A stretch of DNA of 64,000 nucleotides, taken from positions 682,001 to 746,000 of the forward strand of contig JAQWSU010000045.1 in the NCBI GenBank assembly GCA_029243025.1. Reading direction: 5' to 3'. The number at the start of each line of letters is the position of its first letter. Position 1 is the stretch's first letter. Below the pieces are notes generated by a model that was given only the letters and a program-made list of their open reading frames with translations, was not told the origin of the DNA and searched no databases. The DNA is from Pirellulaceae bacterium (GTDB lineage Bacteria; Planctomycetota; Planctomycetia; Pirellulales; Pirellulaceae). The position numbers were made by a program, and so were the translations under genes. Shown in pieces: positions 25,362 through 48,794 of this stretch.

Positions 25362-28300
25362 ATGCGCAGGCGGCACCCCAAGCGACGTTCTCATTCGCAT
25401 TCCACATCGAATTGTTCGCTCGAAACACTTGAGCCTCGTCATTTACTCGCCGGAGATCTGATTGGACATTGGCTGGCAGACGATCTCACGGCTACCACCG
25501 CAGATGAGGCGATCATTTCGGATTGGTCAGACTCCATCGGCACCATCAGCGCCCAATCGATCGGCGAACCCACCCTGATCCATAACTCGATCGGAGGTCG
25601 TGCGGCCGTCCGCTTCCAACCCAATAATGGTGACGACGGTTTTCGAATTCGGGCCTCACAAAACCCGATCGGCAGTCTCGCAGACTTTTCGGTGGTCGTA
25701 AGTTTTGTCACCAGTGCCACATCCCTGCAAGGCGACAATGGGGCTTGGTTTACCAACACGGGCCTTGTTGACTCGAATGCCCAAGGTTTTTCGCAAGATT
25801 GGGGTTTATCGATCAACCAGGACGGAAAGATCGCGACAGGGACAGGCGGTGGTTTTATCAAGCCACAAACAACCCTCTATTCCGATGCGACCGGTTTGAA
25901 TGACGGTGAACTGCACACCGTAGCGATGAGCTTGACCGCAGGCAATTTGAGCATCCATATCGACGATCAACCGGTCACGACTCGCACGGATCCAAACGCA
26001 GGGTCCCGGTCCCCCTTGGATGTCACTTTCGGGATCCTCCAGGTCGACACGTTGCCATTTGAGGGTGATATCACCCAAATCCGTTTCTACGACGGGGCTT
26101 TGACACCGGAAGAATTTTCAGGAATCCGAGAGAATATCAATCAATATTATTCGAACGGTGCGCCGGTCGCTGTGGACGATACTTACGAGACGGCGGAAGA
26201 CACGGTCTTTTTCACGATTCCCGCTAACATCGGTTTATTAGCGAACGATAGCGATCCAGACGGAGATGCGTTGAGTGCGGTCGTCGTTCAGCAACCGCAG
26301 GAGTCGAGCGTTTCGGTCAGCGCTGACGGATCATTTGTCTACTTTCCAGCACGAAACTTCTTTGGCACCGATACGTTTACCTATACGGCCAATGACTTCC
26401 GACCTGGAAACGAGGCAACAGTCACGATCACCGTGACGCCCAAATACGATCCCCCAAGGGCCGTAGCGGACAGCTACGAAGTCACTCCAGGCGAGGTGTT
26501 CAACCTTCCAGGACTTGTTGGCCTGCTCATCAACGATCAAAACCCTGACGAAGCGGACCTGACCGCTGTCTTGGCAGACAACGTTGGCAACGGAAGCTTA
26601 ACGCTGTCCCCCGACGGAGGATTCACCTTCGATCCGGGTGAATTTTTCGGAACCACTACTTTCAGTTATCGCGCCAGCGACGGTGTTTCGGAATCCGCCG
26701 CTGCCACCGTGACGCTCATCGTCAACAGTGCTCCCATGACGGCAGATGACGCGTACTCGGTCGACGAAGATGACGCTTTGACGGTCAACGCAGCCGAAGG
26801 TCTTCTCGCCAACGACGTCGACCGTGAGGGCGATCCGCTCACTCTCGAGTTATTGACCGAACCGCAGCACGGCAGTTTAACCGTCGAGCAAGACGGTAGC
26901 TTCCAATACCAACCCTTCGCAAACTTCTTTGGCGAGGACAGTTTTTCTTATTTGCTAAATGATGGTCGCGATGCATCAGAACCTGCAACGGTTGCACTTT
27001 CGGTCAAGTCCGTCAACGACGCTCCCAACAGCCGCAGCGACTCATACATTATCACGCCCAACCAAGAACTCAACGTGGCTGCCGATGTGGGAGTTCTCAG
27101 CAATGACACGGATATCGATGGACCGACCTTAACGGCCACGTTAATCAGCGAACCGAGTCGTGGAGTCGTGACTCTGCAATCCGACGGTTCGTTCAGCTTT
27201 CAAGCCAATCCAGGTTTTTCGGGACTTGATTCCTTCACCTATCAAGCAACCGATTCAATCGATTTATCGACGATTACGACTGTCACGATCATCGCCGACG
27301 GCGGTGCCGCACAAACGTCGGACCCCACCGGCGATTCCGTCGTCACGTTCAACGAGATCATGTACAACCCCGTGGGTGTGGAAGCCGATGAAGAATGGAT
27401 TGAGCTGCACAACCAGATGGGGATCGACATGGATATCTCCGGATGGCGTTTGGCTGGCGGCGTCAGCTACGACTTCGCTGAAGGCACGGTGATTCCGGGC
27501 AACTCCTACCTGGTCATCGCCGGCAACCCGGAAGCCTTCAAATTAGCCACGGGTGTCGATGCCATGGGACCTTTTGAAGGACGGCTAAACAACAACGGTG
27601 AAGAGTTGCTGTTAATCAATAACTCCGATCGCTATCTCGACATTCTTGATTACCGCGATGGAGGCAATTGGCCGATTGGAGCGGACGGAACCGGTGCCAC
27701 GCTCGCTAAGGCAGCTTTGCATCGGGCCAGTGGTAAATCCGAGAACTGGCGTGCGAGCCTCGAGATTGGTGGTACCCCAGGCGCTGAGAATTTCCCTCTG
27801 TTTAACGCCGATCGAACCGACACGATCGAGGTCTCCTGGGGCAGCGAATGGCGTGTAAACGCAACCGGAGCGGACCTTGGCAGTGACTGGCTCGCCGCTA
27901 ATTTTGACGACAGCCAGTGGCAAACGGCCACCGGCCTGTTCGAAGCGGGCAATCCCGAGTTTCCACCTGCAAACGCCTCAAAACTGGCGGAAGCGGGCGA
28001 GGGACTCGTTGGCTACTGGAAGTTCGACGATTCCGGAGCAAACGCGGTCGACGGCGGGACAGACGCCGAACTCATCTCCGGGGCTCGATTAACTTCTGAT
28101 CCATCACGCGGACAAGTTGTACGCCTTGACGGAAGAAACGACTACATCACCGCCGGGGAACTTCCCGCCATTGGCGTCAATGATGACTTTACCTGGTCGG
28201 TTTGGGTCAATCAGGATGACGCGGACAACGTCAACGCGGTAATTCTTGGCAACCGTACGGGAGGCCAACAAAATCCACTGCAATTCATCAAAGTGACACC

Positions 28301-31300
28301 CACCAACTTTGAGTATTACAGCGACGGTGGCGACCCGATCATTCCCTACGCCATTCCCAATCAGCAATGGGTTCATTTGGCAGTCGCCAAAACAGGGCCA
28401 ATGCTGACCTACTATATCAACGGTGAATCCGTGGGTTCCGGCGAGACATCCGCCGACATGGGAGCCAATCCGTTCTACATCGGCGGTGACCCGAATGCGA
28501 GCCGGGAATTTGCTGATGGCTTGATCGATGACGTGGCCGTTTGGACACGTGCGCTTCCCATCGAAGCAATTGAAGGCTTGGCAGCTGGCACCTATGACCC
28601 GCTAACGGCCCCGACCGTCTTGACCGATGGCCCGGTCGTGCCAGACGGACTCCCCGAGACTACCACTGAATTACCCGCTGATCTCACGACCTACTACTTC
28701 CGAAACGATTTCTTCTTCGAAGGTGATCGCAACCAAAACCCTGTGCTTCAGCTCACGAACCTCACTGACGACGGTGCGGTTGTCTACCTAAACGGTGAGG
28801 AAGTCCACCGCCAAAACATGCCCACCACTGAAATCTCCAGCGACACGTCCGCGTTGGAAGAGATCGACAACATTGGCGCATTGTCCGTCCTGCTGCCAAC
28901 GAACGCTCTGCAACAGGGCAGCAACTCTTTAGCCATCGAAGTCCATCAAAATCGGCCCGGTGCTGGCGATATGTTTTTCGCCGCCGAATTGGTCTCGACC
29001 GCTGTGCCATTGGACCCGAACGCCGTGGCCTTGCCGGTACTCAACGAGATTGCCTCGGCCGATGATGCCAATTTCCAAATCGAAATTCTGAATCCGTCTT
29101 CGCAAGCGATCAACCTAGCTGATTTCCAGCTCAACTCAACCGACGCCGAACATGCCTCGATTCCCTTGGGAGACGGGCAACTGGCTGCGGGTCAATTCAC
29201 AACAATCAGCAGCCAACAACTTGGCTACCAGCCGGTTGATGGAGAACGATTATTCATCACGTATCAGGGCGGTCAACGCTTGGCTGACACCCAAGCCGTT
29301 GACGATCAACTGCGTGGCCGATCCGGTCAGCACGACGGGCGATGGCTGTTCCCCGACGCGGCCACCTTCGGTAGCGGCAATGGATTCACGATCGAAGATG
29401 CAATCGTTATTAATGAAATCAACTATCACGCACCAGGTTTTTATGCTGAGCAACTCGACCGACTCTTTGAAAACGGCGAACAGTGGGTCGAACTCTACAA
29501 CCGCAGTGACACGCGTACCATCGACCTGTCTGGTTGGGAATTTTCAGAAGGCATTGACTTTGAATTTGCAGCTGGAACAACGCTCGGTCCTCAAGAATAT
29601 TTGGTGATCAGCAACGACCCAGACTCACTAGCAGCATCTCGTATTGGCCTCGACGCCGGCAAGGTTTTGGGACCATTTGATCAAAACTTGTCAAATGCAG
29701 GAGAGTTGATCGAGTTATCCGATGCAAAGGGCAATCCGACCGATTCGGTTCATTATTACGACGGTGGTCGATGGGCAGGTTCAGCCGATGCAAAAGGTTC
29801 ATCCCTGGAACTACGAGATCCATTTGCGGACAACAGCGTGGCGGAATCCTGGGCTGCCAGCGATGAAACGGATCAGAATGGCTGGCAAACGATCACCTAC
29901 GGTGGCAACGGAAAACGACTAAACGGAGATCCCACCAAATACAATGAGTTCCTCTTAGGGCTCTTGGATTCCGGAGTCGTGTTAATCGATGACGTTCAAG
30001 TCATCGAGAACCCCGGTACCCCGGACGAACGACAACTCGTCCAAAACGGAAGCTTTGAAAGTGATTCCATCGGGGCGGACGCCGAACATTGGCGAGTCGT
30101 TGGCAATCAACAGGGTATGGTCGTGGAAGATCCCACCGACCCGAATAACCGTGTCCTTCGATTGACTGCCAGTGGTCCAACAGAACACATGCACAACAAT
30201 GGGGGCACCACCCTCAAGGACGGTGACGAGTATATCAAGCTGAGCAATTCGGCAGATTACGAAATCTCTTTCCGAGCGAAATGGGTTTCCGGCTCTAACC
30301 AACTGCACTCACGACTGTATTTCAACCGACTGCCTCGTGTCACACGAGTTGCACGACCGGTTAGCGTCGGCACGCCCGGCGAAGCCAACTCACAGGCAGA
30401 AGCAAATATCGGCCCGACCTACGTCGGCATGGTGCACAGCCCGGCAGTCCCAGACGTCAATCAGCCCGTCACCGTTTCGGTAAACGCCGCCGATGCGCAG
30501 GGCATTGAGGAACTCACCTTACGGTATTCGGTGAATGGGGCTGATTTCAACAGCGTGGCGATGCAGGCCGGCAATTCTGGCCAATATACGGGTGTAATTC
30601 CCGGCCAAGCACGAACTGCACTGGTTCACTTTTACCTCGAAGGTCGTGACCAATCAGGCGCCACTTCGATGTTCCCAGCCGCCGGTCCCGACTCTCGGGC
30701 GTTGTTCCGAGTCCAGGATGACAAGGGCACAGAGGATCAACGTCACAACTTGCGAATCCTGATGACCGATGCAGACGCCAGTCGCCTGCATGAAAAAACA
30801 AATGTCATGAGTAATCACCGTTTGGGCACAACGGTCATCTATCGCGAAGGCGAAATTTATTATGACGTGGGCATCCGCCTTAAGGGCAGCCAACGCGGAC
30901 GAGACAAAGTGGTCCGAGCTGGATTCAACCTCGGCTTTGACCCCTCGCAACTATTCCGTGATGTCCATTCGACCATCGGTGTCGACCGCAGTGGAAGCGG
31001 CGACGAATACAGCCAGGAAGAGATCATCGTTCGGCAAGTCTTCAACCATGCCGGCGACGTACCACAAATCTATGATGACCTCATCAATGTGATCGCGCCT
31101 CAATCGCGGCACGATGGCAGTGCCATGTTGAACTTGGCACGCTACAACGATGTGTTCTTGGATTCACAATACGAGAATGGCAGCCAAGGCACCGCCTTTG
31201 AATACGAACTGATCTACTACCCCACCTCACAAGAAGGCGGTATCGAGGGTCTAAAAAAACCCAACCCCGACTCCGTCGTCGGCGTTCCCATGGCCACGCC

Positions 31301-33122
31301 TCGAGAAGAATCCGACAACAAAGAATCCTTCCGCTGGCATTGGCTAATAGAAAACAACCGACCGGAGGACGATTACAGTCAGCTGCAAGAGGCGCTTGCT
31401 GCGATTGGACAACGGACTTCAAGCGACACCTTCCACGAAGACACCCAACGACTGTTGGATGTCGATCAATGGCTCAGATCGTTTGCCGTCGTCGCCTTGA
31501 CTGGCATCGGTGACAACTACGGTAATGGGTCGCAACATAACGGCATCTTTTACGTACGTCCTAGCGACAACCGACTGCTATTCATGCCTTGGGACATGGA
31601 CTTCTCTTTCACGCAAGGTGCCACTTCGGGAGCGGTTTCCAATGGTGAGTTACGAAAACTACTCACCGATCCAGGCAACGAACACAACTACTACGGTCAT
31701 TTGCATGACATCATCAGTACGACGTTCAATGCAGACTATATGAGTGGCTGGATCGACCACTTCGATGAACTCGTTCCTGGACAGAATTTCTTCCAGGGAT
31801 ACAAATCCTATATCAATACACGAGCGGGCGCCGTCACCAAGTCAATCGAAAGAGCCATCGACGTCGTTCCATTCGAAATCTCGGGCACCGATGCTCTCGA
31901 CGTGGGTGATTCGGCCATCGCCGAACTCACGGGTACGGGTTGGGTCGATGTACGGGAAATCCGTATCGCCGGACAAGATCTTACCTTGCCCATCACCTGG
32001 ACAAGTCCTAACGAATGGCAAGTCAGCATTCCTGTCGACCCAGGCACTCACCCGATCGTACTCGAAGCTTACAACTTCCAAGACGAATTGGTCACATCGG
32101 ATACGATCACAATTACAAGTTCTGCCGTGACACCGGTGCGATCATCTCTACGAGTTTCGGAATTGCAATACAACCCGTCTGGAGCGGTTGCGGATGAACC
32201 CGATGTCAACAATGACCAGTTCGAATTCGTTGAATTGACGAACGTAGGTGAAACAGCAATCGACTTGGCGGGCGTGCGTTTCGTACAAGTGGAACAAGGT
32301 GACGACGTCTCAGGGATCACCTTCACCTTTAGCTCCCAATCTCTCGAACCGGGTGGTTTTGTCATCGTGCCGCGAGATCTGGATGCGTTCCAAGCCCGAT
32401 ATGGCAGTGAACTGCCGATGGCAATTGGCCAGGGTAACGCTGAAAACCAAAATCAATACCGGGGTCGATTGGACAACGGTGGTGAGACGATCACGTTACT
32501 GGATGCAACGGGCGCCACGGTACAGCAATTCACCTATGATGACGCTTGGTATGCCAGCACTGACGGTGATGGAAACAGCTTGGAATTCATCGATCCTAGT
32601 CAGAGTGATCTGAACGCCTGGAACGAATCGTCGCAATGGCGAGCAAGTGCTGCCCTGGGCGGCACACCAGGGCAAGCCTCCCTGGTCATCGGTGATTCGA
32701 ATTTCGACGGCGTCTTCAACTCGTCGGATCTCGTCGTTGTGATGCAAGCGGGACAATACGAAGATGATATCCTTAATAATTCCACCTGGGCGACAGGAGA
32801 CTGGGACGGTGACGGCGATTTCACTACGAGTGACTTTGTGTTCGCCTTTGCGGCTGCCACTTACGTCGATGCAGAACCGCTCGCCGCCGCCAACATCGAG
32901 AACATTGCAGCGGCCCTGCTCAGCGCACAACAACCGCAGCGAAGCGATCGTGCCGATACAAATCGGACTGGACGACTGCAACCCAAATCCGTGGCGCGTG
33001 AAACCGACTTGGAGGCGATCGCCGTTGATCGAATCTTTGAACGAGATCAGCATCCAGCTGAATTCGCGGAGACGCATCACGATCTCCTAGAAACGCCAGA
33101 TGACGAGTTCGATCTGTTCTAA
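25362..33122 (+). CDS. Giant secreted LamG/cadherin-like/LTD/CotH-like surface protein
   Basis: 2586 residues. Basic N-terminus with SLETLEPRHLLAGD, the planctomycete extracellular-protein tag (LExRxLL). Domains in order: LamG-like sandwich (about 34-260); four tandem cadherin-like/tandem-95 repeats (267-646; ADDTY, LLANDSDPDGD, FFGTDTFTY patterns); lamin-tail domain (656-810; FNEIMYNP, EEWIELHN, ISGWRLAGG); second LamG (880-1080); sandwich module; two lamin-tail domains (1223-1500); carbohydrate-binding-like module (1526-1663); CotH-like domain (about 1790-2156; VGIRLKGS, FMPWDMDFSF); Ig-like; lamin-tail domain (2260-2443); dockerin-like EF-hand pair (2443-2503; GDSNFDG, GDWDGDGDFTTSDF); acidic tail ending DDEFDLF. 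Start ATG has AAGGA six bases upstream. Probably cell-surface or matrix; CotH may phosphorylate a partner, although its motif is divergent here. Confidence 0.93.
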   Translation: MRRRHPKRRSHSHSTSNCSLETLEPRHLLAGDLIGHWLADDLTATTADEAIISDWSDSIGTISAQSIGEPTLIHNSIGGRAAVRFQPNNGDDGFRIRASQNPIGSLADFSVVVSFVTSATSLQGDNGAWFTNTGLVDSNAQGFSQDWGLSINQDGKIATGTGGGFIKPQTTLYSDATGLNDGELHTVAMSLTAGNLSIHIDDQPVTTRTDPNAGSRSPLDVTFGILQVDTLPFEGDITQIRFYDGALTPEEFSGIRENINQYYSNGAPVAVDDTYETAEDTVFFTIPANIGLLANDSDPDGDALSAVVVQQPQESSVSVSADGSFVYFPARNFFGTDTFTYTANDFRPGNEATVTITVTPKYDPPRAVADSYEVTPGEVFNLPGLVGLLINDQNPDEADLTAVLADNVGNGSLTLSPDGGFTFDPGEFFGTTTFSYRASDGVSESAAATVTLIVNSAPMTADDAYSVDEDDALTVNAAEGLLANDVDREGDPLTLELLTEPQHGSLTVEQDGSFQYQPFANFFGEDSFSYLLNDGRDASEPATVALSVKSVNDAPNSRSDSYIITPNQELNVAADVGVLSNDTDIDGPTLTATLISEPSRGVVTLQSDGSFSFQANPGFSGLDSFTYQATDSIDLSTITTVTIIADGGAAQTSDPTGDSVVTFNEIMYNPVGVEADEEWIELHNQMGIDMDISGWRLAGGVSYDFAEGTVIPGNSYLVIAGNPEAFKLATGVDAMGPFEGRLNNNGEELLLINNSDRYLDILDYRDGGNWPIGADGTGATLAKAALHRASGKSENWRASLEIGGTPGAENFPLFNADRTDTIEVSWGSEWRVNATGADLGSDWLAANFDDSQWQTATGLFEAGNPEFPPANASKLAEAGEGLVGYWKFDDSGANAVDGGTDAELISGARLTSDPSRGQVVRLDGRNDYITAGELPAIGVNDDFTWSVWVNQDDADNVNAVILGNRTGGQQNPLQFIKVTPTNFEYYSDGGDPIIPYAIPNQQWVHLAVAKTGPMLTYYINGESVGSGETSADMGANPFYIGGDPNASREFADGLIDDVAVWTRALPIEAIEGLAAGTYDPLTAPTVLTDGPVVPDGLPETTTELPADLTTYYFRNDFFFEGDRNQNPVLQLTNLTDDGAVVYLNGEEVHRQNMPTTEISSDTSALEEIDNIGALSVLLPTNALQQGSNSLAIEVHQNRPGAGDMFFAAELVSTAVPLDPNAVALPVLNEIASADDANFQIEILNPSSQAINLADFQLNSTDAEHASIPLGDGQLAAGQFTTISSQQLGYQPVDGERLFITYQGGQRLADTQAVDDQLRGRSGQHDGRWLFPDAATFGSGNGFTIEDAIVINEINYHAPGFYAEQLDRLFENGEQWVELYNRSDTRTIDLSGWEFSEGIDFEFAAGTTLGPQEYLVISNDPDSLAASRIGLDAGKVLGPFDQNLSNAGELIELSDAKGNPTDSVHYYDGGRWAGSADAKGSSLELRDPFADNSVAESWAASDETDQNGWQTITYGGNGKRLNGDPTKYNEFLLGLLDSGVVLIDDVQVIENPGTPDERQLVQNGSFESDSIGADAEHWRVVGNQQGMVVEDPTDPNNRVLRLTASGPTEHMHNNGGTTLKDGDEYIKLSNSADYEISFRAKWVSGSNQLHSRLYFNRLPRVTRVARPVSVGTPGEANSQAEANIGPTYVGMVHSPAVPDVNQPVTVSVNAADAQGIEELTLRYSVNGADFNSVAMQAGNSGQYTGVIPGQARTALVHFYLEGRDQSGATSMFPAAGPDSRALFRVQDDKGTEDQRHNLRILMTDADASRLHEKTNVMSNHRLGTTVIYREGEIYYDVGIRLKGSQRGRDKVVRAGFNLGFDPSQLFRDVHSTIGVDRSGSGDEYSQEEIIVRQVFNHAGDVPQIYDDLINVIAPQSRHDGSAMLNLARYNDVFLDSQYENGSQGTAFEYELIYYPTSQEGGIEGLKKPNPDSVVGVPMATPREESDNKESFRWHWLIENNRPEDDYSQLQEALAAIGQRTSSDTFHEDTQRLLDVDQWLRSFAVVALTGIGDNYGNGSQHNGIFYVRPSDNRLLFMPWDMDFSFTQGATSGAVSNGELRKLLTDPGNEHNYYGHLHDIISTTFNADYMSGWIDHFDELVPGQNFFQGYKSYINTRAGAVTKSIERAIDVVPFEISGTDALDVGDSAIAELTGTGWVDVREIRIAGQDLTLPITWTSPNEWQVSIPVDPGTHPIVLEAYNFQDELVTSDTITITSSAVTPVRSSLRVSELQYNPSGAVADEPDVNNDQFEFVELTNVGETAIDLAGVRFVQVEQGDDVSGITFTFSSQSLEPGGFVIVPRDLDAFQARYGSELPMAIGQGNAENQNQYRGRLDNGGETITLLDATGATVQQFTYDDAWYASTDGDGNSLEFIDPSQSDLNAWNESSQWRASAALGGTPGQASLVIGDSNFDGVFNSSDLVVVMQAGQYEDDILNNSTWATGDWDGDGDFTTSDFVFAFAAATYVDAEPLAAANIENIAAALLSAQQPQRSDRADTNRTGRLQPKSVARETDLEAIAVDRIFERDQHPAEFAETHHDLLETPDDEFDLF

Positions 33123-38373: not shown

Positions 38374-41001
38374 TCATTTCCTCGCCCGGGAAGCGACGTT
38401 CGCTTCTTGAGGTTGGTCAGGGGGATTTTTCGGTCCGACCGAAACACCAACCCAACCATCGCGGACAACAAATTGCGTCACCGATAGATTCTTCAAGCGA
38501 GGATCCGTGGCGAGCCGACCGCGAATCAGATTCAGACGATGGTTGCGAGCCATGACTTTGGTGAAAATTCCTCGCAAGGCAATTTGATCACGGAATCCAA
38601 GTTGCTCACTAATGAGTTCGATACCACCCTCGCGTTCCAAGTTGACATGCATGGAAACAACATCCGCCCGATACCGTCCCCGCACGACGAAGTTGCGCCA
38701 TTTCCTCCGCGGCGTCGAGAGTTCGGCGAGCCGAATCGTGATCAAAATGCGGTCTTCTTCGAGATCAATTTGGATCGGACGGTCTTCACCCAAACGCAAC
38801 TTGACGCCCTCCGGAATGTCCTCATGAATATCAGACCGTCGAATATCAAGCTTTTCCGACATCCGCTTCATCAGATCTTCTAGCTCGATACGTTGGCCGT
38901 CGAGGTCCAATTGCTCAAGCAAATTATTTGCGGCCGACTCGTGAAACTGGAAACTCAACACGCTGTCACGCAGGGCTCGGGGTCGAGGCGTGTAGGCTGC
39001 CAATTGGGAGTTAGCTGCCAATCGGCACCGCATTAAGATGCGTTCCTCGGTGGTACGCATTTCAATCGCACTCGGATCCAGCTTCAGCTTATCCAAAGGT
39101 TCCAGTACACGCTGTTTCCATTTGAGTTCGGCTCCTGAAATTTTCGCTTCGAGTGTCTCATCCAGACGTTCTCGAGCCGCACTGGAGACGCTGTTACGAA
39201 CGGTTGATTGCATTAGAGCCCGATTGTCGCGTAGTTCGTCAATTGCCAGCTGCCGCATCAACCATCCGATCAAAGGAACTTCGTCGTAGTCGGTTTTGAG
39301 TTGAGTGACTCGGGTCTTCCCAGCAGCCGTGGCCGTCGCTTTTTTCCTCGTGACTCCGCGACGACTGACCATCAATTCCTGCCCGGCAGCAAACTTAGCA
39401 CTGCTGCGGGAAAAGAATCGAACCGGACCCTTTTGAGACAAGGTACGTGATCGCGTGCGTCCGGAAGCGACAAACCGCAAACGAATCTGCTGATCGTCCT
39501 CAATCAACTTGACGCGTAGTTGGGTCCAAGTGTTATTACTTCCCCGCACCGAAGCGCCTAACACCGTGTCGTTGACACTCTCTTGGATGGGCTCCAACAC
39601 CGGCAGCAGATCGTTTACCAACTGCCCCGTAATGGCAATCCGTACATTGGCGTTCCGATAATGCGTATTCAGAACCCCTTTTAGCTGGTCAGCTTCGGAC
39701 GTGTTGGCCCAGCGCAGATCGTCCATCGCCTCCATGACTCGCTCACCCAGATGGGCCGATCGAGAGGCTTCAAACTGCTCAATCGTGCGGGTAATTTGCG
39801 GATAATCCTGCGTGACCTGCGCCCAAACCTGCAGCTGATCCGCGAATTCCACGAAAGGCTCAGAGCTCAAGAATTGACGCTGCCGATCTGACATACGCGG
39901 ATTCGCCAGTCGTTTCAGAACCAGCCGCGAGGTTGTTTGTCGCACGGCCGGATCGGTAACCCAGGTGGAAGTCGCAATTTGATTAAGCTTATCCAGCTCG
40001 AGATAGGCTCTCCAGCCAGCTGCCCCGTCCCCCACATCGAATTTTTCTTCCGCTTGCTTCAGAACGGGCAAAATACCAGAAAGGTTCACAGCAGGAGCCG
40101 AAACGGGTGATTGAGCCAGTCGATGGACGGCTCGCCAAACGGCCACACGACGTTCGATGCCATAGGCAATCTGACGCAGTAATACTCGATCCGATTCGGC
40201 CACAGTCTTTTCGACATGCGGCAGGACCTCAGCCAGTTGTCCCAAATCATCAAGGATCGATCCAACGTCGGCACTTGCCAGTTCGTCAGTCGCTTGCAAT
40301 TTCCACAACAAGTCAATCGCCGCACTCCGCCAAGCTTCGACAAGCGGCACGTCGATGCAAACTTCATTCAGACTACCAAGCAATGACGTTGGCTCAGGCC
40401 ACTCGCTTGGTAACTCGACCAACTTGCTCGGCTCGGACTGCCGATTCTTACTTGGTAGCGACGATGATACATCGTTGAGCTCAAAATCAGTAAAATCCGG
40501 TGAGTCCAACAGCGAGCCAGACGTGTTGTCTGTAATCAGTGACCGAGCCTGATTGGAATGGTCACCCCCACGAATCGCATCCGCTTGATCGTCGTGGCCC
40601 GCGAAATCCTCAGCCGTAAATGGCGTCGCTTGGTCTCGTAACGGCTCAATCGTGACCCGCTGTGCTACGATCGGATTCATCGGAGCGACATGAGGACGCA
40701 GCCAGTCTGGATTGAAATCAATGTGAATTCGACTCGGCAGCGAGACCGCTGGCGGGGCGGATACGATCTCGCTATCTTCCGTCTCGTGATCATCGTTGTA
40801 AAAAGTTAACTTTTCCGTCAGATTTTGACGTTCTGCATCATCCAAAGAACGCCACCAACGCGGCGAGACAACTGCGACCAAAAACAGCGCAAGCACGAGC
40901 ATCAAGTGAGGCCAAGTCAATGTTCGAGGATATGGTTCCATCTTGGTTTCCAATTTCCTTGGTGAGTGCCAACTCACCTTTCCCCTCAACAGCAAGCTCA
41001 T
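38374..41001 (-). CDS. Large planctomycete protein of unknown function, membrane-anchored (paralogue of the 60593 gene)
   Basis: 875 residues. One membrane segment (WPHLMLVLALFLVAVV, about 29-47) anchors a large, probably periplasmic body. A low-complexity acidic linker (48-200) precedes an alpha-rich part (210-480) and a beta-rich part (490-875). Segments matching the protein encoded at 60593-62659 include VNDTVLGASVRG versus LNERILGTRIRG, GPVRFFSRS versus KPVRIYSLG, SVLSFQFHESAANNLL versus SVVVQVHESLFLNSAV, and the C-terminal VRDGWVGVSVG versus SSADGWLTLGW. No catalytic motif or known family is recognised. The start could be ATG 41001 (GGAATG before it) or 40941. Divergence in length comes mainly from the N-terminal part. 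Confidence 0.75.
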   Translation of the reverse strand: MSLLLRGKVSWHSPRKLETKMEPYPRTLTWPHLMLVLALFLVAVVSPRWWRSLDDAERQNLTEKLTFYNDDHETEDSEIVSAPPAVSLPSRIHIDFNPDWLRPHVAPMNPIVAQRVTIEPLRDQATPFTAEDFAGHDDQADAIRGGDHSNQARSLITDNTSGSLLDSPDFTDFELNDVSSSLPSKNRQSEPSKLVELPSEWPEPTSLLGSLNEVCIDVPLVEAWRSAAIDLLWKLQATDELASADVGSILDDLGQLAEVLPHVEKTVAESDRVLLRQIAYGIERRVAVWRAVHRLAQSPVSAPAVNLSGILPVLKQAEEKFDVGDGAAGWRAYLELDKLNQIATSTWVTDPAVRQTTSRLVLKRLANPRMSDRQRQFLSSEPFVEFADQLQVWAQVTQDYPQITRTIEQFEASRSAHLGERVMEAMDDLRWANTSEADQLKGVLNTHYRNANVRIAITGQLVNDLLPVLEPIQESVNDTVLGASVRGSNNTWTQLRVKLIEDDQQIRLRFVASGRTRSRTLSQKGPVRFFSRSSAKFAAGQELMVSRRGVTRKKATATAAGKTRVTQLKTDYDEVPLIGWLMRQLAIDELRDNRALMQSTVRNSVSSAARERLDETLEAKISGAELKWKQRVLEPLDKLKLDPSAIEMRTTEERILMRCRLAANSQLAAYTPRPRALRDSVLSFQFHESAANNLLEQLDLDGQRIELEDLMKRMSEKLDIRRSDIHEDIPEGVKLRLGEDRPIQIDLEEDRILITIRLAELSTPRRKWRNFVVRGRYRADVVSMHVNLEREGGIELISEQLGFRDQIALRGIFTKVMARNHRLNLIRGRLATDPRLKNLSVTQFVVRDGWVGVSVGPKNPPDQPQEANVASRARK

Positions 41002-41295: not shown

Positions 41296-41658
41296 TTACT
41301 CCACCAAGATCGTGTCGTCGTGTTCGTAGGGAGGCGCACAACAACAAAGAAAACGCAATTCTTGTTCACCCGAGTTTAAGATCGTGTGAATGGCTCCTGG
41401 CGGAATCGCAATGGCATCGCCAGGCCCCACTGTTTGAACATCGTCGCCAATTCTCATCTCAGCCTGCCCCTCCAAGATGTAATAAATCTCTTCTGTCTTT
41501 TCATGAAAATGAGGGGTCGTCGCACCACCGGTGGGCAGGCGGGCCTCCGCTAAGCTTTGCTTGCGAATACACGAGTTTCGATGCGCAAGTAATTCGCGAA
41601 TCTCCGAGCCGTCAGCAGTAATAAAGGCTGCAACGCGATCAAGATTGACTACATCCAT
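41296..41658 (-). CDS. Cupin-domain protein
   Basis: 120 residues forming a single conserved cupin barrel. Motif 1 is PHFHEKTEEIYYILEGQAEM, with metal ligands in H-x-H...E; motif 2 is PGDAIAIPPGAIHTILN, with the second His. Cupins of this size bind a metal and small molecules, or act as isomerases/dioxygenases or sensor domains; nothing narrows it here. AAGGAG lies before the ATG at 41658. It may be transcribed alone or ahead of the large unknown gene (294 bp apart). Confidence 0.9.
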   Translation of the reverse strand: MDVVNLDRVAAFITADGSEIRELLAHRNSCIRKQSLAEARLPTGGATTPHFHEKTEEIYYILEGQAEMRIGDDVQTVGPGDAIAIPPGAIHTILNSGEQELRFLCCCAPPYEHDDTILVE

Positions 41659-42002
41659 TCAAAGGGGCTCCTTTTTCGGCAGGTCGCATCCATGAAATCG
41701 TAAGCTCTACACCTATCCACCGCCTAGTTTGGTTGACGTAACCAATCTGCACAATGGCCAGAGGCAAACTGCCAGCGCCACAGCAACTGAACAAGCTATT
41801 AGCTTTCAATGGCAAGGCAAAATCCTGAGAAATTTCATTTTGGCAACGAGGAAGTTCAAAATTCTGTCGCATCTGATCGGCCATGCGTGTAGATTAGGTT
41901 GCTCATCGGGCAGTTGGTTCTTCCTTCATGGCCCCCTGCTTCATGGCCCCCTGCTTCATGGCAACTCATAAATTCTTTCACGATCCGATTTGGAGACTTG
42001 GA
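41659..42002. other. Divergent intergenic region with 15-bp tandem repeats
   Basis: Contains the start regions of the cupin gene (minus) and the second giant gene (plus). A 15-bp unit TTCATGGCCCCCTGC is repeated at 41925-41939 and 41940-41954, with half a third copy to 41962. The repeats include ATGs in frame with the giant protein (repeating MAPCF), but a better start with GGAG lies at 42003. Confidence 0.5.
41925..41962 (+). repeat. 15-bp tandem repeat upstream of the second giant gene
   Basis: Two and a half identical copies of TTCATGGCCCCCTGC. Each contains ATG in frame with the downstream gene, so the units would encode MAPCF if translated. Confidence 0.85.
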
Positions 42003-45000
42003 ATGCGCTTCTTTGGCTGGTCCCAATTCATCAATAACCGTAGCTACGATCACCAACCCAGAAAGCCGCTCACTAAACGACGAGAGCGAGCGACCGGTTT
42101 AGAGGCACTGGAAGATCGGCGCGTCTTAACAAGCGTGCCCGTGATCAGCGAATTTTCAGCGATCAACGAGTCCGTGCTGGAAGACATGGATCGGGACGAT
42201 CCTGATTGGATCGAATTACACAACGCGGGTGACAGCGATATGTCACTCAACCGTTGGTATTTGACAGACGACGCGGATAACTTGCAGAAATGGCGATTTC
42301 CAAACGTCGCTCTTGATGCGGGTGATTACCTGGTAGTTTTTGCATCCGGAAAAGACCGCAACACCGAAGGTCAGGAACTTCACACCAATTTCAAATTGAG
42401 CGGCGAAGGGGAATACCTGGCTTTAGTGGAGCCGGACGGGGCGACAATCGGCTTTGAATACGCCCCAAATTACCCTGACCAAATCACGGACGTTTCCTTT
42501 GGAATTCCGACGGGCATTAATCCCACCACTCTCATCGACTCCAACGCAGTGGCACGAATTCTGATCCCAACAGATAGCAGTTTGGATCCAGCGGAGCCAG
42601 AAGTTGTGCAGGGCACTTGGCTGGATCCCGATCTGGATGACAGTACGTGGATGGCAGGGAAAACGGGCGTGGGTTACGTGCCCCCCAACGAGCCGGTCAC
42701 ATTGGCTGATTCGGTCGCTGATTTTTCTGGATTGCAAAACCAGAACAATTGGTACTACGGCGTCTGGAACGCTGACGGCGCCTATTTACAAAACGCCTTC
42801 AACACCCTCAGCCCAGATGTTTTTGACGCGAACAATAATCTGTGGGACTCATCACCAAATGGCGGAGGGGCACAGATCACCGCCGAGGGAGGGCTTCCCA
42901 ATTCGGTCAATTTGGGTTTTTTCACAATTACGAATTGGTCGTTACGTCGCTGGGTAAGTGAGACGACGGGCGAAGTCACAATCTCTGGAACGCTCAACAA
43001 CGCGGACTCCGTCGGAGATGGTGTGATCGGTCACATTTTCGTCAATGGGGAGGAAGTCTATCAACAGGCGGTTAACGGTTCTAGCAGCGACTATTCCATC
43101 ACGGTTGATGTAAAAGTCGGCGACAAGGTCGACTTCGCTATCAACCCGGGAGCAGCTCGCAACGTGGTCGGCGATGCGACAGTTTTCACATCCCAGATCG
43201 TTGGTAGACCGTTTGTGGAAATACCGCAGGTCGAAGTCGCCAATTCCTCCGAAGACTGGTCCAAAGTGGGCCTCCAAGGTCAAAACGGTTGGATTTACGG
43301 AGTCTACGAAGCCACCGCTGATGCAGACAATTCCTACAGTGGGGAAGAATTCCAAGCATTTTCAGGTGCTGCCTGGACAGGTCGTCGTTATGAATCGCCC
43401 GTTTCCGGAGTCGAGACGGAAATGAGCGCTTCAAATATGTATCCGCACGCGCAAGATGGCTTGGTTCAGTGGCCCATTCGACGTTGGGAATCAACCCTGG
43501 ATGGCAACCTATCAGTCGCCTGGAGCGTTTTAAAATCATCCTCCGATGGCGACGGCGCCGTGGCGCGTGTGTTTCATAACGGCGTCGAGGTCGATCTGCT
43601 GGAAATCGATGGGAGCGACCGTTCTCAAGCGGACCGAGTCGTTAAAATCCTCGGAGTCAAACGAGGTGACTCGATTGATTTAGCGATGGATCCCAAAGGA
43701 CCTGGACAAGCGGTAGCGAATGACAATGGCGATCGTTTACGCGGCTACATGACGATTGCTCGCTTGCCCAATCTTGCCGACAGCATCACCACGAACGTTC
43801 GCGACGCAATGCTAGACGTCTCGTCTAGCGCCTACCTGCGTATCCCTTTCCAAGTAGAAAGCATGGGACAGCTCGACACAATTGAATTGAACATGCGGTA
43901 TGACGATGGATTCGTGGCCTACGTCAACGGACAAGAGGTAGCATCGAGTAACAGTCCGGACGTGATTGGATTTGATTCAACCGCCTCTGACATTCGAAGT
44001 GTGGAAAACGCAACTCTCTACGAATCATTCGACATCACGGATCGCCGAGATATTTTTCGCACTGGTGAAAACGTACTGCAAATCCATGCTCTTAATGCGA
44101 CAGCGAATGACGAAGATCTGCTGATTGCTCCGCAACTCATTATTGGGACACTTTCCGTACATCCTGAAGAACGAAGATATTTTCCACTACCCTCACCGGG
44201 TAAGCCCAATGGATTAGGAGCTGAAAAACTGGGACCTTTGGTGCTCGACGTCGAACAATCCCCGGCTGCGCCTACCGCAGCAGACCCGATTGTCATCACT
44301 GCGACGGTTGCCCCCACCTTCGATAGCCTCAATTCTGTCGAGTTAAATTATCGTGTCATGTTCGAAGACGAAATTTCGATGGCGATGGTAGACGACGGGA
44401 CCGATGCTGACGCGCAAGCCAATGACGGTATCTACACCGCTACCATTCCGGGTGCTGTCGCCGAATCAGGCCAAATGATTCGTTGGTATGTGACAGCTCA
44501 GGACGTGAACAGCGTGGCCGGCAGACTTCCCCTCTTCTCCGATCCAAAACTATTGGAACAGTACAAAGGGACGGTCGTCGACGCCGATTCCATTGAGACT
44601 CAACTACCCACTTTCCATTGGTTCGTGGAAAACGCCCGACGAGCCACTTCCGGTGGCGGTTCAGGAGCTCTCTACTACGAGGGCGAATTCTATGACAACG
44701 TTCGATTTAGTGGACATGGCCAGTCATCTTCTGGTTTCCCCAAGAAGAGCATGAACGTTGACATGCCAAACGATCATCGGTTGCTGCTGCGAGCCGATTT
44801 ACCTCGTATGGAAGATTTCAACTTTCTGTCCAACTACGCTGACAAATCAAAAATGCGCAATACGTTGGGTTACGAACAGCGAGCTGCCACCGGAGGTGCC
44901 CATCACCTAGCCTTTCCAGTGCGTTTACAGCACAACGGTGAATTCTTTGCGGTCTATGACTTTGTCGAGGATCCGGATGAGCGATGGCTCCGACGCATCG

Positions 45001-48000
45001 GGCTGAACGAAACCGGCTCGCTCTACAAAATCTATAACACCTTCAATTCACCCTCTAGCGCGGAGAAAAAATCGAGGAAGTACGAAGACAACCAAGACTT
45101 GAAGGATGCAATCGCAGGCATCAACCAACGAGCCATCACGGATGCCGTTGACTTTATCTACGACAACGTCAATCTCGCTCAAATGGCCAATTATTTAGCT
45201 GGCTTTGTTCTCACCTCAAACGTGGATTGTTGCCATAAGAACTACTACGCTTACTACGACATCGAAGGAACGGGCGAGTGGTGGTATCTTCCCTGGGATG
45301 TTGACCTAAGTAACGGTCGCACTTGGGGGGGGTTTGGTCGGGCCTATTTCGACGACACGATGTACAGCGAACGTGGGCTGTTGATGGGTAGCAACAATAG
45401 CCTGATCACCCGACTCTACAACAGCACACCCGGCTTTAAGGAAATGTATTTCCGGCGCGTCAGAACGCTCATTGATGCCTATGTGAAACCTCCAGGGACC
45501 GCCCGTGAGGATTTACCCCTGGAAAGTCGCGTCGACGAATTGGTCGCGTTGATGAAGCCCGATGCGGACTTGGACAACGAAAAGAATCCGGCAGACTGGG
45601 GCCAGATTGGCTTCCAAACCTTTGACCAAGCCGTCCAGATTTTGCTGGAAGAATACGCAAAACCAAGGCGAGAGTGGCTTTACAACACGCAGGTCAAAGC
45701 CGACACAGCGGACATTCCCGTGATTCTTTCTGGTGAAGCAGGTTCTGTCATCGGCACCTATTTTGTGCCGAAAGATGGCTCGCTCGGCAAGTCCTGGACC
45801 GCTTTTGATTTCGATGACAGCAATTGGAAATCCGGTCCTGTCGGCTTCGGCTATGAAAACAATCCCGATGATTTCGCCGATCTTATCAAGACAGACACCA
45901 AAGCCGACATGACAGGCTCCACGTCGGTCTACACCAGAATTCCTTTCCAGGTTGAAGACCCGGAAGCGCTCCCAGGTCTTTCTTTACGAATGAAATTCGA
46001 CGATGGATACGTTGCCTATATCAACGGCGTCGAAGTCACTCGCCAGCGATTACGCCAAGATGAACCTACTTTCGATTCCACAGCTCGATCGCGTTCCAAT
46101 CGATTGGCGGTGGAATTCGACAATGCGAATATTTCTGAATTCCTGCATCTGCTGCGACCCGGCGAAAACATCCTCGCAATCCAAAGCATCAACTCATCCG
46201 CCACGGGTAATGACATGTTGATGCTTCCCGGACTCGTGGGAGGCGCGTTGAGTTCAGGGGAAGGACAAATCCCAACGGCGCAAATCGGAAACCCAAAGAT
46301 TGACGTTGGCACGATCGAATTTAACCCCAGCAGTGGAAATCAGGCAGAAGAATACATTCAGCTAATCAACAACCATAAGTTTGCAGTTGACATTTCAGGA
46401 TGGCACTTGGCCGGAAACGTGGAACACACATTCGACCCAGGCACAGTGATTCCCGCCGGTGGCAGCTTGTATGCTACGCCAAACGCCAAAGCATTTCGGG
46501 CGCGATCCGAAGGCCCTTCCGGCGGAATGCGATTGTTCGTGCAAGGCAATTACCAAGGTCAGTTACCCAATCTGGGCGGCAACCTTCAAATCGTCGCAGC
46601 CGATGGTGAAGTCGTAAATTCGGCAACGTTCACGGGAGAATCGACATCCGTTCAGGACAATCTACGTATCTCTGAAGTGATGTTCAATCCGCTCAATGCA
46701 AGCGGCGCTGAACTGGCCTTAGACAACAGTCTGGTAGCAGATGACTTTGAATACATCGAACTCGTCAACATCTCGGAAACCGAGACATTGGACTTGCGAG
46801 GCGTACATTTCAACGAAGGGATTGTATTCACCTTTAATGATGCAACCGTCACCGAACTGGCACCCGGCAGCAGAACGCTACTCGTGCGAAATTCCAACGC
46901 GTTTCAGATTCGCTACGGAAATGACCTCCAAGAGATGATCGCAGGCGAATTCGCTGACAACAGTGGACTTCGCAACAACGGCGAGATCTTAACACTTGTC
47001 GACAGCGTTGACTCTACGGTAAATCAATTTAGCTACGGTGTCCAAACCGATCAGAGCTGGCCTTCACGAGCCGATGGTCGTGGCAGCTCAATCCAAGTCA
47101 CCGATTACCATGGCAACTACAATGACGGTGCCAACTGGCGTGCGAGCAGTGAAATCCACGGGTCTCCCGGAACTGCTGGAATTGACCCGGTCGATGGATT
47201 GAAAATTAACGAAGTGCTTTCAAGACCAGCCGATCCGGCAGTGGATCAAGTCGAACTGATCAACCCCACTGGCCAACCAATTGACCTGAAAAACTATTAT
47301 CTGAGTGACTCCAGCAACAGTCTCGATTCACTAAAACTATTCGCCCTTGGCACCGGTAGTATCGAAGCCGGTGCTTATCGGGTTTTTGACGAACCACACT
47401 TCAACCCAGGCAACGGCGAAAACGCAAATGATTTCGCCCTGAACGGTAGTGAAGGCGACCAACTCTTCCTGACTTTTGGTGATGAGAATGGCCCGACACA
47501 CTTCGCTGACAGCGTTCAATTTGGCGCCGCCGGCCTGGGTGAATCGTTTGGGCGTACACCCAATGCTACAGGTGTACTTGCCCCCATGCTGAAAACCACA
47601 ATGGGCACGGCCAACAGCGATCCGCGAGTTGGCCCGTTGGTGATCACCGAGGTCAACTATCAGCCGGCAACGCCTTCGGCCGACGCTCTCGCGGCATTTG
47701 ATCAAATCACGGTCGACGATCTTGAATTCATCGAAATCCACAATCCCACCTCGGAAACGGTCAGTCTGAACAATTGGCGAATCCGACGAGGCATTGATAT
47801 AAATTTTGATGATGGCACTGCGATTGAGGCGGGTCAAACCTTGGTTGTCACGTCGTTCAATGCAAATCGAGCAGACAACGCTGCTCGCACGGCAGCCTTC
47901 CGAGCCCACTATGGGATCGGCGAAAACGTAACACTGCTCGGCGGTTACGCCGGCCAACTCCGAGACCTGGGCGAAGGGATCCAATTGCAACGCCCCGATC

Positions 48001-48794
48001 AACCTGCACCGGACGACCCCACCTCGATTTCCCACTTGCTGGAGGACGAGTTGATTTACAACGACGTCGCCCCCTGGCCCACCAACGCACAGGGAACGGG
48101 CCTGACTCTGACTCGTACCTCCATCAACGCATTCGGCAACGTACCGGAGAGCTGGATCGCGACGGAAGCCTCACCCGGTGAAATTGGTGATGTACCGGGT
48201 GACGTGACTGGCGACGGAATCATCGACGTCGCTGACATCGATGCCGTCTGCGTTGGTCGTCGCACGGCTGATCTGCAGTTTGACGTAAACGGCGACGGCA
48301 AACTGGATGAAGCCGATACCCTCATGCTCGTAAATGACTCACTCGGCACCAGCGTGGGGGATATCAACCTCGATGGCGCCTTCGACTCGAGTGACTTGGT
48401 TTTGATTTTCCAGGGTGCCCAGTTCGAAGATCAGCTCGCCGACAACTCGAACTGGACGACAGGAGACTGGAATTGCGATGGTGAATTTACAAGTGAAGAT
48501 TTGACATACGCCTTGCAAAAAGGCGAGTATCGCAAGCAAATCGAGCAGGCGCCTGTCGCAGCGGTTGCTGCCGCAATCCTGAATCGCAACCAAAACGAGT
48601 TCGAGAATGTCTCGACGATTACGAATCGAGGGACGCAGCCCATCGTGAGGCAAACACTCAATCAAGAGCGACTCGGTTTTGCTCAGCACGACGCCATTTT
48701 CGAAGCAGACGAACGCGAGTTCCAACTGGCAGCAGAGAAGAATAAGGAAGTCGCTGATGACTTGCTGAATAGTCTGACCGATGACACCTTCTAG
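42003..48794 (+). CDS. Giant secreted lamin-tail/CotH surface protein
   Basis: 2263 residues from ATG 42003 (GGAG seven bases before). The N-terminus carries the LExRxLL tag (GLEALEDRRVLTS). Domains in order: lamin-tail domain (46-160); two copies of a sandwich module (about 243-400 and 426-587; NNWYYGVW, LRRW and GDGVIGHIFVNG versus NGWIYGVY, IRRW and GDGAVARVFHNG); jellyroll (610-713; FQVES, YDDGFVAYVNG) with a second copy (1306-1413); CotH kinase domain (866-1230; SGHGQSSSGFPKKSMN, LSNYADKSKMRN, YLPWDVDLSNG); four lamin-tail domains (1433-2058); two dockerin-like EF-hand pairs (2061-2176); acidic tail ending LTDDTF. CotH proteins phosphorylate partner proteins. The cytochrome gene overlaps its end by 14 bp. 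Same architecture class as the 25362 protein. Confidence 0.93.
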   Translation: MRFFGWSQFINNRSYDHQPRKPLTKRRERATGLEALEDRRVLTSVPVISEFSAINESVLEDMDRDDPDWIELHNAGDSDMSLNRWYLTDDADNLQKWRFPNVALDAGDYLVVFASGKDRNTEGQELHTNFKLSGEGEYLALVEPDGATIGFEYAPNYPDQITDVSFGIPTGINPTTLIDSNAVARILIPTDSSLDPAEPEVVQGTWLDPDLDDSTWMAGKTGVGYVPPNEPVTLADSVADFSGLQNQNNWYYGVWNADGAYLQNAFNTLSPDVFDANNNLWDSSPNGGGAQITAEGGLPNSVNLGFFTITNWSLRRWVSETTGEVTISGTLNNADSVGDGVIGHIFVNGEEVYQQAVNGSSSDYSITVDVKVGDKVDFAINPGAARNVVGDATVFTSQIVGRPFVEIPQVEVANSSEDWSKVGLQGQNGWIYGVYEATADADNSYSGEEFQAFSGAAWTGRRYESPVSGVETEMSASNMYPHAQDGLVQWPIRRWESTLDGNLSVAWSVLKSSSDGDGAVARVFHNGVEVDLLEIDGSDRSQADRVVKILGVKRGDSIDLAMDPKGPGQAVANDNGDRLRGYMTIARLPNLADSITTNVRDAMLDVSSSAYLRIPFQVESMGQLDTIELNMRYDDGFVAYVNGQEVASSNSPDVIGFDSTASDIRSVENATLYESFDITDRRDIFRTGENVLQIHALNATANDEDLLIAPQLIIGTLSVHPEERRYFPLPSPGKPNGLGAEKLGPLVLDVEQSPAAPTAADPIVITATVAPTFDSLNSVELNYRVMFEDEISMAMVDDGTDADAQANDGIYTATIPGAVAESGQMIRWYVTAQDVNSVAGRLPLFSDPKLLEQYKGTVVDADSIETQLPTFHWFVENARRATSGGGSGALYYEGEFYDNVRFSGHGQSSSGFPKKSMNVDMPNDHRLLLRADLPRMEDFNFLSNYADKSKMRNTLGYEQRAATGGAHHLAFPVRLQHNGEFFAVYDFVEDPDERWLRRIGLNETGSLYKIYNTFNSPSSAEKKSRKYEDNQDLKDAIAGINQRAITDAVDFIYDNVNLAQMANYLAGFVLTSNVDCCHKNYYAYYDIEGTGEWWYLPWDVDLSNGRTWGGFGRAYFDDTMYSERGLLMGSNNSLITRLYNSTPGFKEMYFRRVRTLIDAYVKPPGTAREDLPLESRVDELVALMKPDADLDNEKNPADWGQIGFQTFDQAVQILLEEYAKPRREWLYNTQVKADTADIPVILSGEAGSVIGTYFVPKDGSLGKSWTAFDFDDSNWKSGPVGFGYENNPDDFADLIKTDTKADMTGSTSVYTRIPFQVEDPEALPGLSLRMKFDDGYVAYINGVEVTRQRLRQDEPTFDSTARSRSNRLAVEFDNANISEFLHLLRPGENILAIQSINSSATGNDMLMLPGLVGGALSSGEGQIPTAQIGNPKIDVGTIEFNPSSGNQAEEYIQLINNHKFAVDISGWHLAGNVEHTFDPGTVIPAGGSLYATPNAKAFRARSEGPSGGMRLFVQGNYQGQLPNLGGNLQIVAADGEVVNSATFTGESTSVQDNLRISEVMFNPLNASGAELALDNSLVADDFEYIELVNISETETLDLRGVHFNEGIVFTFNDATVTELAPGSRTLLVRNSNAFQIRYGNDLQEMIAGEFADNSGLRNNGEILTLVDSVDSTVNQFSYGVQTDQSWPSRADGRGSSIQVTDYHGNYNDGANWRASSEIHGSPGTAGIDPVDGLKINEVLSRPADPAVDQVELINPTGQPIDLKNYYLSDSSNSLDSLKLFALGTGSIEAGAYRVFDEPHFNPGNGENANDFALNGSEGDQLFLTFGDENGPTHFADSVQFGAAGLGESFGRTPNATGVLAPMLKTTMGTANSDPRVGPLVITEVNYQPATPSADALAAFDQITVDDLEFIEIHNPTSETVSLNNWRIRRGIDINFDDGTAIEAGQTLVVTSFNANRADNAARTAAFRAHYGIGENVTLLGGYAGQLRDLGEGIQLQRPDQPAPDDPTSISHLLEDELIYNDVAPWPTNAQGTGLTLTRTSINAFGNVPESWIATEASPGEIGDVPGDVTGDGIIDVADIDAVCVGRRTADLQFDVNGDGKLDEADTLMLVNDSLGTSVGDINLDGAFDSSDLVLIFQGAQFEDQLADNSNWTTGDWNCDGEFTSEDLTYALQKGEYRKQIEQAPVAAVAAAILNRNQNEFENVSTITNRGTQPIVRQTLNQERLGFAQHDAIFEADEREFQLAAEKNKEVADDLLNSLTDDTF

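Follow-up and report, generated by a model that had tools for sequence, protein, structure and literature searches.

How do the giant LExRxLL proteins of planctomycetes leave the cell, how are they held at its surface, and what do their C-terminal ends contribute? This question is raised by a 64,000-nucleotide stretch from a Pirellulaceae bacterium (assembly GCA_029243025.1, contig JAQWSU010000045.1, positions 682,001 to 746,000; G000:C45:682001-746000 in our numbering), termed the window throughout. It encodes two giant proteins with an LExRxLL motif near the N-terminus, a terminal dockerin-like module and a C-terminal tail. The genome to which it belongs (G000, the own genome) comprises 8.35 Mb on 60 contigs and is 96% complete. 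LExRxLL has been proposed to be an N-terminal export signal (Studholme et al., 2004, as cited in PMC8567305), and in a passage of a 2021 proteome paper signals of this type are "thought to represent" an export peptide (PMC8567305). According to the same paper, such a signal is carried by eight of the ten longest Tuwongella immobilis proteins, and the LExRxLL proteins of this organism are surface candidates (52 genes, 20 proteins detected, 8 exclusively in the sodium dodecyl sulfate fraction). Judged by patterns and profiles, LExRxLL and the C-terminal label PEP-CTERM are mutually exclusive in the genomes examined, and both occur on proteins with the same module. The combination of one module with two labels that are almost never found together points to two parallel surface-sorting routes with one docking handle.

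LExRxLL and PEP-CTERM on module-bearing proteins

A search of the own genome with the C-terminus of protein 2 yielded 217 candidates for the module of about 60 residues. Of these, 150 were scored matches, each in a distinct frame; a search with the profile A2 gave 318 candidates. All 150 frames were fetched and their C-terminal ends were read; two of the frames run off their stretch or contig at the 5' end and two more at the 3' end. In one protein class, whose members mostly have a signal peptide, the module is followed by PEP-CTERM, in the other, the LExRxLL class, by a tail or by nearly nothing. By pattern, 78 frames carry LExRxLL only, 67 PEP-CTERM only, one both, and four neither. The PEP-CTERM pattern combines the motif with the hydropathy of a 15-residue stretch, and its threshold was retuned: at least 1.2 gives the 67 exclusive frames (median 453 amino acids, aa), at least 1.5 gives 65 (median 448 aa). 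With the stricter cut the four counts are 78, 65, 1 and 6 (Fisher test, 3.6e-34). The classes also differ in size, the median length being 453 aa for the 67 PEP-CTERM frames versus 1757 aa for the 78 LExRxLL frames, and at the N-terminus, where a strongly hydrophobic window is present in 52 of 65 PEP-CTERM proteins versus 7 of 78 LExRxLL proteins.

The double label of C34_6771 is probably due to chance, because its LEMRLVL lies at residue 116 and the protein is not among the PF07595 (LExRxLL, Planc_extracel) matches. Among the frames with neither label, C49_93349 has a PF07595 match within its own frame of 8454 aa. The beginning of C45_2666 coincides with a contig end, and the first residues there duplicate the final part of an LExRxLL frame truncated at the edge of contig C35. 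C21_171483 is short, lies about 2.7 kb downstream of a PF07595 match on the same strand and perhaps represents a broken gene. The fourth such frame is C24_91726. The frame of 8454 aa is a single open frame (G000:C49:68392-93600) with an LExRxLL profile match at its start and the module at its end.

A profile test, which is independent of the pattern retuning, gave the same picture: 85 LExRxLL frames and 131 PEP-CTERM frames in the own genome had no frame in common. PF07595 frames below 12 bits or 150 aa and PEP-CTERM frames below 18 bits or 100 aa were left out. The PEP-CTERM profile had 149 matches, of which 124 reached at least 20.7 bits, and 131 frames were used. PF07595 is a weak profile of 20 positions; only 11 of the 96 listed own-genome matches reach its cut-off, one of them only with its neighbours. 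The LExRxLL assignment is backed by a glutamate two residues before the leucine, which is not part of the pattern and is present in 75 of 77 aligned own-genome cases. The consensus of the 77 is an Arg-rich stretch followed by (L/V/F/I)E.LE.R.(L/V)LA, and both giants fit it, including the basic flank. In four other metagenome-assembled genomes (MAGs), 39 of 90 complete frames carry only LExRxLL, 41 only PEP-CTERM, none both, and 10 neither.

The exclusion was also found beyond the module-bearing proteins. PEP does not occur in the last 45 residues of any of 40 LExRxLL proteins from two module-free genera, and none of 17 further LExRxLL frames of the own genome has PEP-CTERM with a membrane stretch, the Pro-rich end of L241_71808 merely containing the letters PEP. 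At the C-terminal end of both giants PEP-CTERM (PEP, hydrophobic stretch, basic end) is likewise absent. It has been stated that PEP-CTERM proteins always have some form of signal peptide (from a passage in PMC3237569), and this rule fits the observed exclusion. A literature search in open-licence articles of PubMed Central returned, among the matches listed, nothing on an exclusion of LExRxLL and PEP-CTERM or on a tail of LExRxLL proteins.

In common with the known PEP-CTERM/exosortase system (PF07589, PF09721), the own genome has PEP-CTERM frames with the label in its C-terminal place after the module, and four exosortases over the cut-off of the profile search. The difference is that none of the examined LExRxLL proteins, the two giants among them, was found to carry PEP-CTERM. 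Compared to the known LExRxLL family, the Arg-rich stretch and the consensus near the N-terminus of giant proteins are the same, while the association with a C-terminal helix motif and the exclusion of PEP-CTERM are additional. As a side observation, several PEP-CTERM stretches have profile scores that are identical or almost so, and they are situated at most about 550 bases from contig ends (G000 C2:292419, C11:111466, C52:76904, C19:36, C45:1141212) or, in one case, about 6.5 kb inside a contig (C33:257391). This suggests that the assembly is interrupted by near-identical copies of one PEP-CTERM gene.

The dockerin-like module and its cysteines

By sequence and predicted structure the fold of the module is dockerin-like. 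In an AlphaFold 2 model of the C-terminal piece of protein 2 the predicted local distance difference test (pLDDT) blocks reach 92-97 (residues 11-80), 85 (81-90) and 93-95 (91-120), and the dockerin helices comprise residues 18-30, 45-55, 71-80 and 106-115. The six best Foldseek matches are all dockerins, with weak E-values (0.59 and worse). The search of solved structures matched mainly cellulosomal dockerins, with a piece of a hyaluronidase ranking first. The original prediction of a dockerin-like module is confirmed for both giants. Protein 2 passes the Dockerin_1 cut-off of 22.9 bits (29.5 and 38.3 bits); protein 1 stays just below it (18.3 bits for the whole protein, 22.5 bits for the C-terminal piece). 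In addition, protein 2 has a further unit upstream that had not been described.

With type I dockerins (PF00404) the module shares the duplicated Ca-loop and helix, GDxNxDG and SSDL, the C-terminal place and, in protein 2, a score over the curated cut-off. It differs by its clade-specific consensus YED....NSxW..GDWN.DG, by its frequent doubling with a covarying Cys pair, by its place before PEP-CTERM or an LExRxLL-class tail, and by its occurrence in a genome without a cohesin over cut-off. The D, G and N positions of its Ca-loop are invariant in the alignment. Dockerin_1 is described as frequent in huge planctomycete proteins (in a passage of PMC11573180). Three LExRxLL proteins (L240, G000:C22:204140; C9_169687; C6_241215) have the module directly after LExRxLL and not at the protein end.

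Of the 119 genomes sampled from the family, five have strong matches, with 252-502 candidates each: the own genome, a second genome of its genus and three from other genera. Four more have weak matches (1-5), and 110 have none. In a sample of 195 genomes of the phylum, matches were restricted to the own genome and two weak ones in one other genome. The module as a general planctomycete feature was thus rejected. A contig scan of 84,980 species revealed 398 encoded relatives, and the best 80 of these 398 fall into 77 loci of only four MAGs, SP176 and HKST-UBA27, 30 and 38. From their matching coordinates we infer that these are the four sister genomes of the family sample. A pattern search of the relatives' loci gave 121 distinct modules, 90 of them in the complete frames introduced above, which include two identical pairs and thus 88 distinct frames. 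Sequence comparison therefore characterizes the module as a lineage-specific, massively copied part, which is also present in PEP-CTERM proteins, just before PEP-CTERM.

The terminal module contains a loop cysteine (GDWNCDG) in 31 of 78 LExRxLL proteins versus 0 of 65 PEP-CTERM proteins. Of the 155 rows considered, 106 (49 own, 57 relatives) have a recognisable upstream dockerin unit. In these double-dockerin proteins the loop cysteine and a cysteine at the DIDLLC position of the upstream unit are concordant in 102 of 106 cases: 74 have both, 28 neither, three only the loop cysteine, and one only the upstream cysteine. Alignment A3 contains 34 of 46 relatives with a Cys loop, picked by hand. 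Outside the dockerin region cysteines are rare in the LExRxLL class (83 of 106,435 residues; PEP-CTERM class, 72 of 19,013). The covariation indicates that the two dockerin units are probably locked together by a disulfide. The alternative that Cys2183 of protein 2 is a free intermolecular cross-linker is less likely, because a partner cysteine was found in the upstream unit. The exclusive label pairing, the clade-specific expansion of the module and the Cys pair are what is new here.

The C-terminal tail and the two giants

A common C-terminal arrangement of the two giants had been predicted, and indeed their C-termini are 40% identical across the EF-hand pair and the tail. Among the 78 module-bearing LExRxLL proteins of the own genome 60-129 residues follow the module in 42, fewer in 34 and more in two, and the long-tailed proteins are longer (median 2062 versus 1470 aa). 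The motif D-x-hydrophobic-F, which was taken from the original observation on the giants, occurs in 30 of the 42 long tails versus 3.2 +/- 1.7 in shuffled sequences, and in 7 of 12 long tails of the relatives versus 0.7. AA[ALI] is present in 26 of the 42 versus 10.5 after shuffling. The acidic DDxF end, which had also been noted, holds for both giants and for the protein 2 ortholog. As a general tail feature it is not supported: DDxF/LL ends 17 of 42 own tails versus 9.7 by shuffling (14 of 2000 shuffles reach 17) and 4 of 12 relatives' tails versus 2.5 (479 of 2000 reach 4).

The co-occurrence of the tail motif with LExRxLL was then counted across 152 LExRxLL C-ends. D-x-hydrophobic-F is present in the last 60 residues of 65 of them versus 6 of 220 controls. 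The controls were real frames, 300 aa or longer, that lack LExRxLL, PEP and the module; some of them may be non-coding. By group it occurs in 37 of 66 in the own module class, 13 of 29 relatives, 8 of 17 other own proteins, and 7 of 40 in G200 and G205 (p 0.001). The counts used 66 of 78 own and 29 of 39 relative proteins; tails below 10 residues, two 3'-open frames and two unusual own proteins, in which the module is followed by about 250-300 residues, were left out. G200 and G205 belong to other genera; both genomes are complete and gave no match to the module, and the best 20 of 32 and the best 20 of 28 listed PF07595 proteins were read. The other own proteins stem from 21 further LExRxLL frames of the PF07595 list that are outside the module list or, in the case of C49, open upstream; 17 of them are closed at the 3' end, and one of the 17, L240, has the module directly after LExRxLL. 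In their last 100 residues the motif occurs in 9 of 17 versus 1.5 by shuffling, in some within other recognisable repeats. Five frames, two on L243 and one each on L245, L248 and L250, have another type of dockerin at their end (DVNGD...DALLVINxLN-like). A similar tail follows this second type in LExRxLL proteins, also in G200 and G205.

Many C-ends in G200 and G205 read like AVDQIFGGL or AIDAALADLL, and the mean net charge of their last 30 residues is about -4.6. A looser motif, [VI]Dx[AVILMF][FLI], is found in 54 of the 152 LExRxLL C-ends versus 5 of 220 controls. These sequences tie the tail motif to LExRxLL more closely than to the module, and they do so even in proteins that have no module at their end. 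Because the module is also present in PEP-CTERM proteins without LExRxLL, it can be separated from the tail. As the motif is present in other LExRxLL proteins well above the controls, also in those without a terminal module and more weakly in G200 and G205, the absence that would have refuted the original idea was not observed, and a sorting or assembly signal stays a fair candidate for its function. The tails had no plausible match to a known family in Pfam or NCBIfam. The model of the protein 2 piece predicts tail helices at residues 127-145 and 174-201 (pLDDT blocks 61-87), with a linker near 47 between them.

The features of both giants are compiled in Table 1. The predicted LExRxLL tags near both N-termini and the LTD and CotH domains (Pfam) were recovered in both proteins. 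The PF07595 score of protein 1 was 14.9 bits in one search and 21.4 in another and did not reach the cut-off of 25.5; protein 2 is absent from the PF07595 matches of the profile search, and its LExRxLL was seen by pattern only. Translation of protein 2 may start at an internal ATG.

Table 1. Features of the two giant proteins, with positions in the window.
Feature	Position	Strand	Description
Giant protein 1	25362..33122	+	open throughout, 2586 aa; LExRxLL, Big_9/cadherin-like x4, LTD x4, Laminin_G_3 x2, CotH (partial), terminal dockerin-like module, tail
LEPRHLL, protein 1 (aa 23-29)	25428..25448	+	sequence; PF07595 match below cut-off
CotH kinase-like domain, protein 1	31347..31772	+	PF08757 45.8 bits, aa 1996-2137, partial profile match
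Terminal dockerin-like module, protein 1	32691..32864	+	single unit without Cys; profile A2 102.6 bits (A2 includes the protein 1 sequence)
C-terminal tail, protein 1	32865..33119	+	VDRIF at 33024-33038; acidic end DDEFDLF
Giant protein 2	41928..48794	+	open throughout, 2288 aa; LEDRRVL, LTD x5, CotH, double dockerin, tail
LEDRRVL, protein 2 (aa 61-67)	42108..42128	+	pattern only; conserved E at -2 (GLEALEDRRVL)
CotH kinase-like domain, protein 2	44715..45680	+	PF08757 118.7 bits, aa 930-1251, full match
Upstream dockerin unit, protein 2	48165..48356	+	Cys2108 (48249-48251) in DIDAVC; Dockerin_1 38.3 bits, two stretches
Terminal dockerin-like module, protein 2	48357..48530	+	Cys2183 (48474-48476) in GDWNCDG
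C-terminal tail, protein 2	48531..48791	+	Ala-rich helix, HDAIF (48687-48701), second helix, end DDTF

A syntenic ortholog of protein 2 is encoded in the MAG SP176 (locus L158) and has 59% identity over 2302 aligned columns, the tail being 43% and the body 61% identical. The Ala-rich, HDA(I/V)FE and DLLxSLxDDxF patches of the tail are kept, the linker is not. The locus also holds relatives of the window genes at 38374, 48781, 49744 and 52119. The genes between the two giants look ordinary by eye; few were compared with protein families. The listed open reading frame of a cytochrome c-type gene (PF00034, 44.8 bits; 48781-49413) overlaps the last 14 bases of protein 2 in a different frame. Together with the relative downstream of the ortholog, this overlap means that the two genes may be coupled. 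The window proteins 38374-41001 (-) and 60593-62659 (-) are distantly related (23% identity over 360 columns, E 3e-15). The former has no Pfam match at E 0.01, and its relative adjoins the protein 2 ortholog.

A proposed scheme of two routes with one handle, and the alternatives

The reading we favour, with a probability of about 0.48, is that two export routes deliver proteins with one common Ca-dependent assembly handle, and that the LExRxLL route has a candidate C-terminal signal in the tail. The giants would belong to the set of LExRxLL surface proteins represented by the 85 profile frames of the own genome. One route would consist of Sec and exosortase and act via signal peptide and PEP-CTERM, the other would be separate and read from the Arg-rich LExRxLL N-terminus, with an amphipathic C-terminal helix (D-x-hydrophobic-F and looser forms) taking the place of PEP-CTERM. 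Outside the cell, both classes would fold the same Ca-dependent EF-hand module, which may be the handle by which members of either class attach to the cell coat or are assembled into it, the receptor being something other than a recognisable cohesin, and the predicted disulfide would lock two dockerin units together. A more far-reaching version appears doubtful as a whole. It holds that LExRxLL and the short amphipathic C-terminal helix (D-x-hydrophobic-F or [VI]Dx-hydrophobic-[FLI]) are paired signals of an undescribed planctomycete export and surface-sorting system, parallel to and exclusive of exosortase/PEP-CTERM, which would handle giants and converge in this clade on a disulfide-lockable dockerin handle with a non-cohesin receptor.

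Several observations weigh against the two-route reading. Ten of the 90 relative frames carry neither label by pattern; all ten come from three HKST MAGs, SP176 alone giving 17 LExRxLL, 6 PEP-CTERM and no frame with both or neither, and six of them, read by eye afterwards, have degenerate labels (LLDARQLL, LHERCVL, FEAKQML, PELC, PEAS, PESS). Eight of the 34 module-bearing LExRxLL proteins with fewer than 60 residues after the module have fewer than 10, two of the 34 being cut by contig ends, and 87 of the 152 LExRxLL C-ends lack D-x-hydrophobic-F. Therefore, the tail is not an obligatory signal in this form. In the last 100 residues the motif is weak in the module-free genera (G200, 7 of 20 versus 2.4 shuffled; G205, 5 of 20 versus 2.9). 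G205 also does not repeat the Ala-rich part (5 of 20 versus 4.8). The looser motif occurs in the last 60 residues of 16 of 40 proteins of these genera versus 2.8 by shuffling, which is not an independent test, because it was worded after reading those 40 C-ends; upstream control segments gave 1 of 40 and 5 of 39, the latter somewhat high versus 1.9 shuffled. The two Cys traits are not phylogenetically independent, with 19 changes each and one well-supported independent pair in a tree of short sequences with the cysteines masked. And export by LExRxLL, cleavage by exosortase and binding by the module are inferred from sequence.

Giant size, a low Cys content, Ca-binding near the C-terminus and an acidic C-end are typical traits of type I secretion substrates. 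The LExRxLL giants might thus be exported in one step, with the acidic amphipathic tail translocating, the Ca-binding dockerin pair folding first outside and helping to pull the chain, and LExRxLL acting later in retention. Their size, the Ca-binding module near the C-terminus, the scarcity of strongly hydrophobic N-terminal windows, a Cys content of 0.12% versus 0.44% and the acidic C-ends also in G200 and G205 would all agree with this. However, in many members of the family the tail is short or missing, and the N-terminal, conserved LExRxLL after its basic stretch itself resembles a targeting signal, so that one-step secretion seems unlikely to us. Distinctly unlikely is a purely passive role, in which the module would be no more than a C-terminal structural cap or spacer that has multiplied through gene duplication and conversion, and the tail sequence would not be under selection. 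The variable length and sequence of the tail linkers and the lower identity of tail than body to the ortholog speak for it, but the tail motifs recur across unrelated LExRxLL proteins, and the three tail patches survive in the ortholog.

It appears even less likely that the module works as a dockerin of the classical, cellulosome-like kind, and that its cohesin, the type of partner in the original prediction, was missed through incomplete assembly or divergence. The Dockerin_1 score of protein 2, the mostly cellulosomal structure matches and the dockerins among the best Foldseek matches are in line with it, as are cohesins over cut-off in 29 of the 195 phylum genomes. For freshwater planctomycetes, a "planctosome" of cohesins and dockerins has been put forward (Andrei et al., 2019; in a passage of PMC6461901), and LTD domains and dockerins in large surface proteins are common to that model and the proteins described here. 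However, the "planctosome", as presented there, rests on cohesins and peptidases, whereas the 96%-complete own genome contains no cohesin over cut-off in a search with PF00963, the only profile used (best match 13.8 bits). Each of the four sister genomes has hundreds of module candidates, but a cohesin match, a marginal one of 25.2 bits, was obtained in only one of them. A classical cohesin partner is thus not supported for this clade. Hundreds of dockerin copies without recognisable cohesins indicate that dockerin counts alone are no sign of a cellulosome-like system.

How LExRxLL proteins exit the cell and are retained at its surface is apparently still an open question in the field (from a passage in PMC8567305). 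The exclusion of the two labels, the C-terminal motif and the common module make the export and retention of LExRxLL proteins concretely testable.

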